A stretch of DNA of 58,037 nucleotides, taken from positions 1 through 58,037 of the forward strand of contig VHCY01000005.1 in NCBI GenBank assembly GCA_016871595.1. The letters run 5' to 3'. The position numbers and the translations under genes were made by a program. The stretch comes from Verrucomicrobiota bacterium (GTDB taxonomy: Bacteria; Verrucomicrobiota; Verrucomicrobiia; Opitutales; Opitutaceae). The stretch's first letter is position 1. Each line of letters begins with the position of its first letter. The notes beneath the pieces were generated by a model that was given only the letters and a program-made list of their open reading frames with translations, was not told the DNA's origin and did no database searches. Shown piece by piece: positions 24,635-28,994 of the stretch.

Positions 24635-25495
24635 TCAGACCGTAACCTCGAACAGGTCCGGGTGCATCACGCCCTCGGCGACCTTGTTGACCGTCCCGGT
24701 CATCTGGATGGCGTAGTCCGGGCCGATGGAGATCCCGATCCGGCCGCCGGGCATATGGACGGTGACGTCGCGGTCGACGAAGCCGAGGCGGTGGGCGACG
24801 GCGGCGGAGGCGCTCGAACTGCTGCCCGAAGCGAGGGTGTAGCCGGCGCCGCGCTCCCAGATCTCGATACGGATGTTCGCGCGGTCGATCACCTGGAGGA
24901 ACTGCACGTTCGTCTTCCGCGGGAAAAGCGGGTGGACCTCGAGGTGGGGCCCGTAACGGTGTGCGAGGTCGGCGGTGATCTCCGGGAGCGGGAGCACGCA
25001 GTGCGGGTTGCCGATGGTGGCGGCGCAGAAGGTGAACTCGCGGTCGAGCACCTTCACCTTTTCGTTGAGCACCTCCCGGGCGGCACCGGGCAGGAGGACC
25101 GGGATACGGGCGCTGTCGAAGCTCACCTGCCCCATCGCGACCGTGATCAGCCGGCCATCCTCGCGGATCTCAGCGCGCACGTCGCCCCCTAGCGTCTCCA
25201 CGGTGAACACGGGCTCGCGGACGAGGCCCTGGTCCCAGAGGAAGCGGGAGAAGATGCGGAGGCCGTTGCCGGATTTCTCGGCCTCGGAACCGTCGGGGTT
25301 GAAGATGCGCAGCCCGTGCTGGCTGGAGCGCGAGGGGAGGGGGCCCCAGAGGATGCCGTCGGAACCGACGCCGAAGTTCCGGTGGCACACCACCCGGATC
25401 TGCTCGCGGGACGGCGCGGCTCCCCAGGCCGGGAAGTCCGCGGGGTACAGGACGATGTAGTCGTTGCCGAGGGCGTGGTACTTGTGGAAACGCAT
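24635..25495 (-). CDS. dapF: Diaminopimelate epimerase-like protein lacking both catalytic cysteines
   Basis: The 286-aa protein has the DapF fold signatures: KYHALGNDYIVL, GVGSDGIL, NPDGSEAEKSGNGLRIF, TIGNPHCVLPL and ERGAGYTLASGSSS. DapF normally interconverts LL- and meso-diaminopimelate using two cysteines in the motifs CGNG and ACGTG. Here both positions are serine (Ser75 and Ser223), read from TCC and TCG codons, so classical two-base thiol racemisation looks impossible. The rest of the active-site framework is intact. It may catalyse a different reaction, use serines in a related way, or be inactive for lysine synthesis. I start at MRFHKYHAL; the track adds five residues. It is followed after 7 bases by a tiny membrane ORF. 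Confidence 0.85.
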   Translation of the reverse strand: MRFHKYHALGNDYIVLYPADFPAWGAAPSREQIRVVCHRNFGVGSDGILWGPLPSRSSQHGLRIFNPDGSEAEKSGNGLRIFSRFLWDQGLVREPVFTVETLGGDVRAEIREDGRLITVAMGQVSFDSARIPVLLPGAAREVLNEKVKVLDREFTFCAATIGNPHCVLPLPEITADLAHRYGPHLEVHPLFPRKTNVQFLQVIDRANIRIEIWERGAGYTLASGSSSSASAAVAHRLGFVDRDVTVHMPGGRIGISIGPDYAIQMTGTVNKVAEGVMHPDLFEVTV

Positions 25496-27416: not shown

Positions 27417-28898
27417 TCAGGCGGCGAGCGGCGGATGGCCGAAGAGTCCGCGCCGCCGGATCGCGGCCGCGACCGTCGGCGGCACCTGCCGGGCCCAGGC
27501 GGGATCGCCCGCCCGGATGTGCTGCAGGACGTCCCCGGAGCGGGCGCCGAGCGCGGCGGCGTCGAAGCCCGTGAGGGATTCGATGTAGCCGTTCTGCAGG
27601 AGGTGGTCGTAGAGGTTCCGCAGGTGCGGCGTGATGTGGACGTTCCGGGCCGTGATGAGCACGTCGCGCGCGAAGGCGTGGCCGGCGATGGAGCCGTGCG
27701 GCAGCGCGGCCTCGGAAGTCCGTTCGAGGGGCTGCTGGCGCATCGGGTAGATGTAAAGCTTGACCGCGTGGCGGAACATGCGGCCGAAGGACTCGAGGAT
27801 GCCGCCCTCGAGGTGTTCGTAGTACTTCTCGTTGAACACCTCGAGCAGGTTGTCGATGCCGAGCGCCATTCCGATCATCTCGCGGGTGTAGCGCCGGAAG
27901 TAGGAGGTCAGCCGGTAATACTCCGGGTAGTTCGAGATGAGCGTGGTGAAGCCCAGCTCGCCAAGGAGGTCCACCCGGGACAGGAAGTCGGCCGCGTCGA
28001 GCTCGCCCGCGCCGGCGGCGAGCAGGTTGTTCATCGTGATCTCCATCAGCGCGATCACCTCGCGGCCCTGGACGGCGGGCTCCTGCACGAACTGGGCGGT
28101 CGCGCAGGTCAGCATATCCACGTTCGCGAGGGTCACGGGGCGGAAGCTGCCGCGCTCGACGAGCACCGCCTTGCGGTGCAGCACCTCGGAGGGCTGGAGG
28201 ACCTCCCCGCGCGCCCCGAACATCACGGCGTTGGTGAGGCCGTGGCGGACGAGGTGGAGCGCCATCAGCCGGTTGTCGACGTGCGCGAGCGCGGGCCCGC
28301 GGAAGGCGATCATATCCACCTCGAGCCGTGCCGCGCCCACGTGGTCGACGAGCGACTCGACCAGCCGCCGGGGGTCGTCGAGGTAGTAAAAGGCCCCGTA
28401 GATCAGGTTCGTGCCGGCGATGCCGAGGGCCGCCTGCTGGGCGACCGCCTCCTTGTCCCACATCCGCACGTGCAGGATGATGTCGTTGGGCTCGCCGCCC
28501 GGCGTGGCCTGGAAGCGGATGCCCATCCAGCCGTGCGCCTCGTTGTTCCCCTTGAAACCGCGCGTGGTCACGGTGTCGGCGAAGACGAAGAAGGTCGTGC
28601 GGTCGCCCCGCTGGCCGGCGAGACGCTCCTGCAGCAGCGCGTACTCGTGGTCGAGCATCAGCGTGAGGCGCTCGCGCGACACGTACCGCGGGGCCTTCCC
28701 GTAGATCGCGTCGCTGAAGGTCATATCGTAGGCCGAGATCGTCTTGGCCACGGTCCCCGCCGCGCCGCCCGCCTGGAAGAAGACGCGCGCCACCTCCTGC
28801 CCCGCCCCGATCTCCGCGAACGTCCCGTACTTCGCCTCGTCGAGGTTGATCGTGAGGGCCTTCCGGTTGGTCGTCAGGAGCTCCTTCTGTTCCGTCAT
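27417..28898 (-). CDS. Conserved protein of unknown function (TonB/nicotinate-type misannotation family)
   Basis: I recognise this as a well-conserved 490-aa protein found in Verrucomicrobiota, cyanobacteria and others. Database labels for it vary and are in my view unreliable (for example nicotinate-nucleotide adenylyltransferase or TonB-dependent receptor). Conserved-looking blocks are TINLDEAKYGTFAEIGAGQE, FFQAGGAAGTVAKTISAYDM, NNEAHGWMGIRFQ, IILHVRMWD, GTNLIYGAFYYLDDP and FNEKYYEHLEGGILESFGRM. No signal peptide, transmembrane segment or nucleotide-binding loop is visible, so it is probably a soluble cytoplasmic protein. I start at MTEQKELLTTNRKALTINL; the track start adds 16 residues. It heads the run leading to two amidohydrolases and diverges from sppA across about 96 bases. 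Confidence 0.8.
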   Translation of the reverse strand: MTEQKELLTTNRKALTINLDEAKYGTFAEIGAGQEVARVFFQAGGAAGTVAKTISAYDMTFSDAIYGKAPRYVSRERLTLMLDHEYALLQERLAGQRGDRTTFFVFADTVTTRGFKGNNEAHGWMGIRFQATPGGEPNDIILHVRMWDKEAVAQQAALGIAGTNLIYGAFYYLDDPRRLVESLVDHVGAARLEVDMIAFRGPALAHVDNRLMALHLVRHGLTNAVMFGARGEVLQPSEVLHRKAVLVERGSFRPVTLANVDMLTCATAQFVQEPAVQGREVIALMEITMNNLLAAGAGELDAADFLSRVDLLGELGFTTLISNYPEYYRLTSYFRRYTREMIGMALGIDNLLEVFNEKYYEHLEGGILESFGRMFRHAVKLYIYPMRQQPLERTSEAALPHGSIAGHAFARDVLITARNVHITPHLRNLYDHLLQNGYIESLTGFDAAALGARSGDVLQHIRAGDPAWARQVPPTVAAAIRRRGLFGHPPLAA

Positions 28899-28994
28899 GA
28901 GGCGGAGGGTGCCCCACCCGCGGCCCGGCGCAACCGCGCTTTGCACCGGGTTTCGACTGGAGGAACCGTCGAAAGCGGCTAGGGTCGCCCCCTG

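Follow-up and report, generated by a model that had tools for sequence, protein, structure and literature searches.

A clade of diaminopimelate epimerase (DapF) homologues in Verrucomicrobiota with serines at both catalytic cysteine positions and a probable role in meso-diaminopimelate supply

In the textbook chemistry of diaminopimelate (DAP) epimerase, DapF, a cysteine thiolate and a cysteine thiol act as a pair. Replacing cysteine by serine, a much weaker acid, is the usual crippling change. Single engineered Cys-to-Ser changes greatly cut turnover in a DapF-like histidine racemase (PMC11602996). In the proline racemase superfamily, B9JQV3 uses Ser93 together with a Cys to epimerise 4-hydroxyproline, and one Ser/Thr member is a dehydratase (PMC4113996). 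A His and a Glu of DapF have been called essential for epimerase catalysis (PMC5885031). DAP is bound by corresponding Asn, Glu and Arg residues in the Corynebacterium glutamicum enzyme, which loses nearly all activity when these are changed to alanine (PMC5296763). No published description of a DapF with serines at both catalytic positions (Ser/Ser) was found in the open-licence literature.

The window analysed here, a stretch of 58,037 nucleotides from a member of the Opitutaceae (Verrucomicrobiota), carries such a dapF homologue on its minus strand. The ATG-started reading frame (24635-25495) encodes 286 amino acids, and a TTG-started version of the same frame extends to 25510. Residue numbers of the window protein start at the Arg following the Met, so that adding 1 gives full-length numbering. 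The gene is identified by its open reading frame, by a TIGR00652 score of 218.6 bits (cut-off 114.65), by a match to PF01678 (Pfam), and by its AlphaFold model and fold matches. Its active-site motifs read EKSGNGLR and YTLASGSSSSA. Ser74 (codon TCC, 25271-25273, minus strand) and Ser222 (codon TCG, 24827-24829, minus strand) align exactly with the catalytic Cys73 and Cys217 of E. coli DapF. A preliminary description of this DNA had reported that both catalytic cysteines are replaced by serines with the codons TCC and TCG; the alignment confirms this and adds the strand, which had been left unstated.

Scans of the protein against Pfam and NCBIfam return DapF models only, with none from the proline racemase superfamily, and the model for bifunctional DapF/glutamate racemases, NF038284, gives 56.4 bits against a cut-off of 350. 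Because serine occupies both sites of the thiol/thiolate pair, the protein is classed here as a DapF variant on the grounds of homology and likely role, and is kept apart from the classical thiol enzymes. Automatic annotation does not reveal the variant, since its score exceeds the cut-off of the DapF model.

The closest 80 loci in public genomes, which come from separate assemblies, are all Ser/Ser. When loci from elsewhere in the order and phylum are added, the set reaches 283 distinct proteins: 196 Ser/Ser, 82 Cys/Cys and 1 Ser/Cys form, and four fragments in which one of the two sites is absent. The earlier view that the serines are not a reading error is borne out by these independent assemblies, and with 196 distinct Ser/Ser proteins and open frames, sequencing error and pseudogene formation were both rejected. 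A maximum-likelihood tree of 104 rows, computed with the trait columns left out, places 63 Ser/Ser rows on one side of a branch (support 100/88) and 40 Cys/Cys rows on another branch (98/91). A Ser/Ser clade, the existence of which the preliminary description had raised as a question, is thus present, and scattered convergent mutations were rejected as its origin since a single clade is recovered even without the trait columns.

Within the window's order the clade reaches most families, and its members include proteins from 0.8-1.3 Mb genomes that are 37-47% identical to the window protein. Ser/Ser DapF is also found in other Verrucomicrobiota families (f19, f28, f35, f38, f44, f54, f59, f68, f77 and f78), and sister groups have Cys/Cys DapF instead. 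Outside Verrucomicrobiota, where plasmid records were covered, the best matches are at most 40% identical, in a comparison by identity only. The only Ser/Cys DapF seen is that of a 1.0 Mb genome of the order (G407; L224 and L321), with the motifs EMSGNGVR and TKSCGSG. Its branch in the tree is very long, and it may represent either an intermediate type or a change that arose independently.

Ser74 and Ser222 are kept in 196 of 196 clade members, and site 74 is Cys in all 82 Cys/Cys proteins. The Ser74 codon belongs to the TCN family in 107 of the Ser/Ser proteins and to the AGY family in 89, the corresponding numbers for Ser222 being 188 and 8. At least three switches between these families are found on the tree for each serine site. 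No one substitution can convert TCN to AGY, or the reverse, without another residue in between, which argues that selection acts on serine itself.

The residues that match N11, N64, N75, N157, H159, N190, E208 and R209 of the E. coli enzyme are invariant, with one row gapped at N11, and the window protein thus has the DAP-binding Asn, Glu and Arg residues together with the catalytic His. His164 (25001-25003, minus strand; E. coli His159) and Glu213 (24854-24856, minus strand; E. coli Glu208), the proposed helpers of Ser74 and Ser222 respectively, are present in 196 of 196 Ser/Ser and 82 of 82 Cys/Cys proteins. Three further positions distinguish the clade. Lys73 occurs in 192 of the 196 Ser/Ser proteins, and 78 of the 82 Cys/Cys proteins have Met there. 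Tyr218 is clade-specific (195 of 196), as is Ser225 (codon AGT, 24818-24820, minus strand), which is Ser in 195 of 196 Ser/Ser proteins and Gly in 82 of 82 Cys/Cys proteins (Gly220 in E. coli). An obligatory role for Lys73 as serine activator was rejected because Ile replaces it in four members. The earlier claim that all other active-site motifs persist holds as far as the catalytic helpers and the residues that bind substrate are concerned; it misses, however, K73, Y218 and S225, which are fixed co-changes beside the serines.

An AlphaFold model (pLDDT 92.0, pTM 0.87), for which 27 sequences from relatives of the window's organism were used, places each serine immediately before a helix (75-87 and 223-235). 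Each catalytic position thus sits at the N-terminus of one of two central helices, as is characteristic of the DapF fold. The top Foldseek matches in the PDB are DapF structures, among them Haemophilus influenzae DapF mutated to C73S or to C217S; the structures of proline racemases are matched only remotely (13-17% identity).

The window's own genome (G000) is a 3.6 Mb metagenome-assembled genome (MAG) that is 89.7% complete. The window protein is its sole DAP_epimerase protein, and it also encodes a plant-type DapL (562 bits) and LysA (445 bits). Neither Ddh nor a second, canonical dapF was found in this MAG. DapL and a second dapF had been named in the preliminary description as genes worth looking up, although it considered a second dapF irrelevant. 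This was mistaken, since the absence of a second gene bears on the role of the first and is among the strongest arguments that the window protein makes meso-DAP. The gene set is the same in two relatives assembled as one contig each (G088 and G091), with the LysA of G091 just under its cut-off, and a further route to meso-DAP was not found in either. Their MurE carries the DNPR motif, a known mark of meso-DAP ligases. A maker of LL-DAP and a user of meso-DAP are therefore encoded, and other sources of meso-DAP were not found, which is the pathway position of DapF. No lysine or wall genes were seen beside dapF in the window, and its genomic context is thus uninformative about its role. Also in the window, upstream of two amidohydrolase genes, is a gene for a 509-aa protein (27417-28946, minus strand) that has no Pfam match at E 0.001.

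Ddh is an unrelated oxidoreductase that bypasses LL-DAP. In a tally of 105 genomes from the order, 79 have Ser/Ser DapF only, 10 have Cys/Cys DapF only, 1 has both forms, 2 have Ser/Ser DapF and Ddh, 6 have Ddh only, 1 has the Ser/Cys form and 6 have none of these; a few rows of this tally are fragments, and weak PF16654 matches of 43-54 bits in G018 and G080 were not counted as Ddh. Five of the six genomes with none are 0.8-1.0 Mb in size; the sixth, G432, produced no match in any search and may be unreadable. Ddh is present in the order's DapF-less genomes that have readable sequence above 1.3 Mb. Within genus g32 there are genomes with Ser/Ser DapF only (G408, G417 and G424), with Ser/Ser DapF and Ddh (G439 and G456), and with Ddh only (G343 and G449). 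The Cys/Cys form is the only DapF of genus g15, which belongs to the window's own family. In another family of the phylum (f22), a Ddh match was obtained for 12 of the 13 genomes without DapF that were tested, and one of these matches is partial.

These swaps among Ser/Ser DapF, Cys/Cys DapF and Ddh have the look of exchange between equivalent suppliers of meso-DAP. Few independent exchange events underlie the pattern. One genome (G348) carries both the Ser/Ser and the Cys/Cys form, which implies that the two are not always interchangeable. Another (G284), from the window's own family and 97% complete, has LysA and MurE, and neither type of DapF nor Ddh was found in it, reflecting either an assembly gap or another source of meso-DAP.

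A DapL-like aminotransferase scores 342-376 bits on TIGR03540, well under the 593-bit cut-off of that model. It is present in all ten Ser/Ser genomes tested that are without plant-type DapL (G408, G417, G424, G439, G456, G433, G102, G299, G001 and G039), and it is absent from the four Ddh-only genomes tested. This protein may be an unrecognised type of DapL.

The best explanation of these observations, to which we assign a probability of roughly 0.7, is that the window protein is the organism's LL-diaminopimelate 2-epimerase and uses a predicted Ser/Ser acid-base pair. Comparative genomics supports the role in meso-DAP supply, and we infer the Ser/Ser chemistry from the position and conservation of the two residues. 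DapL would produce LL-DAP, Ser/Ser DapF would convert it to meso-DAP, and LysA would take meso-DAP for lysine. In near relatives, meso-DAP would also enter the wall through the DNPR-type MurE. DAP would sit in the canonical pocket as the two domains shut. Ser74 with His164 and Ser222 with Glu213 would form two acid-base units, dyads in which the serines transfer protons during turnover of DAP. Formation and relay of the alkoxide would be aided by His164 and Glu213, and perhaps also by the clade-specific Ser225.

That the conserved His and Glu assist the serines is probable. A single Cys-to-Ser change greatly slows a relative, so the natural Ser/Ser form presumably relies on second-shell changes, for which S225 is the best candidate. 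The suspicion of a changed mechanism voiced in the preliminary description holds up as a likely reading. The nearest biochemical precedent is the Ser/Cys epimerase B9JQV3. We also lean, with somewhat less assurance, towards the broader proposal that the clade consists of thiol-free, cofactor-independent epimerases with a two-serine acid-base pair (Ser-His and Ser-Glu at helix N-termini) and provides the meso-DAP enzyme of most of the order.

Other explanations were weighed against this one. The protein might make meso-DAP with other groups as its bases, such as His164, Glu213, Lys73 or a bound water, or with a cofactor such as PLP. This is unlikely, because bystander serines would not be expected to stay invariant in 196 proteins despite switches of codon family. 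The invariance of His164 and Glu213 speaks in its favour, but Lys73 gives way to Ile in four members. The chlamydial DapF does racemise Glu in a PLP-dependent manner (PMC5885031); no PLP fold or lysine site was noticed in Ser/Ser DapF, however. Even less credible is a dead DapF retained for a non-enzymatic role, for example binding an RNA-processing partner, as E. coli DapF is described as binding RppH (PMC4227774). Engineered Cys-to-Ser mutants of relatives are indeed poorly active, but the whole catalytic and substrate pocket of the clade is invariant, even where identity falls to 37-47% in the 0.8-1.3 Mb genomes, and one-contig genomes such as G088 and G091 yielded no other meso-DAP route.

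The preliminary description also suggested a different reaction. Glutamate or ornithine racemisation or elimination from a hydroxylated amino acid could be considered, with meso-DAP coming from an enzyme not found here. Among DapF homologues there are racemases of His, of O-ureidoserine and of 2,4-diaminobutyrate; in the proline racemase superfamily, Ser/Thr members act as dehydratases (PMC4113996); and many PVC bacteria are said to be without MurI (PMC5885031). Cultured Opitutaceae contain little DAP (3-7 nmol/mg, versus 63 in E. coli), with no DL-DAP by TLC, and notable ornithine (6-18 nmol/mg) (PMC5303756). Against this, the DAP-binding residues are invariant, DapL and LysA are present, the Ser/Ser form swaps with Cys/Cys DapF and Ddh, and the DapL-like gene is jointly absent in Ddh-only genomes. 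The suggestion is thus unsupported, and we consider another substrate or reaction improbable.

The cell wall genes of the window's own lineage show an unusual pattern. A cluster in its genome (G000:C45, L366) has the order mraW-like, ftsI-like, MurE-like, murF, mraY, LysM-like, ftsW-like, murG-like, murB and ddl-like, with murD missing after mraY and murC missing before murB. Several of these names were assigned by synteny and reading; MurF, MraY and MurB are above their model cut-offs. In near relatives (L368-L371 for comparison) the cluster is likewise without murC and murD, whereas a genome placed in the same genus (G010, L367) has murD and a murC-murB fusion in its cluster; G000 has lost the murC half of this fusion. 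In the MurE-like protein of G000 both the NLTRDHLDYH block and the lysine segment are missing, and ADSR stands in place of DNPR. The same kind of decayed MurE is found in G457-G461 (L329-L332 and L334), and other stages of decay occur in G465 (L327), G463 (L328) and G462 (L333). This decay is graded: at one extreme a single motif has gone, at the other most of the central domain, and the frames remain open. Mur-ligase-domain proteins number four each in G000 and G457-G462, versus seven in G010. The own genome also encodes Mpl (G000:C34, L349; 401.6 bits against a cut-off of 388.7). In these incomplete MAGs, the pattern suggests a free-living lineage that either makes its wall only from salvaged L-Ala-D-Glu-meso-DAP via Mpl and MurF or is losing it. 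With a salvage-only wall, DapF in this lineage would serve lysine alone.

The Ser/Ser form may be relevant to the low DAP content that has been reported in walls of Opitutaceae. An annotated DapL-DapF route has been described for Lacunisphaera (PMC5303756). More generally, Ser/Ser DapF would challenge the view that DapF needs two thiols. If the proposed chemistry is correct, two hydroxyls suffice for cofactor-free 1,1-proton transfer at an amino-acid alpha-carbon, and second-shell changes would be what permits it. Such a DapF would have no oxidisable catalytic thiols and is predicted to be insensitive to thiol-directed DapF inhibitors.

Four known systems stand closest to the clade. Ddh (PF16654) resembles DapF as an alternative source of meso-DAP. 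B9JQV3 likewise has a serine for a catalytic cysteine in a two-base epimerase of the same general fold (PMC4113996), but only one of its cysteines is replaced, and it belongs to another family with another substrate. The C73S and C217S forms of H. influenzae DapF (PDB 2q9h and 2q9j) have serine at the same positions, singly; these are laboratory mutants of a Cys/Cys enzyme, without the second-shell changes of the clade. Canonical DapF (EC 5.1.1.7; Pseudomonas aeruginosa 8qzy, Anabaena 9mro, Arabidopsis thaliana 3ejx and E. coli 4ijz) shares the fold and domain duplication, the DAP-binding residues, the catalytic His and Glu, and the pathway position. In contrast to it, the window clade has serines for both catalytic cysteines, accompanied by K73, Y218 and S225.
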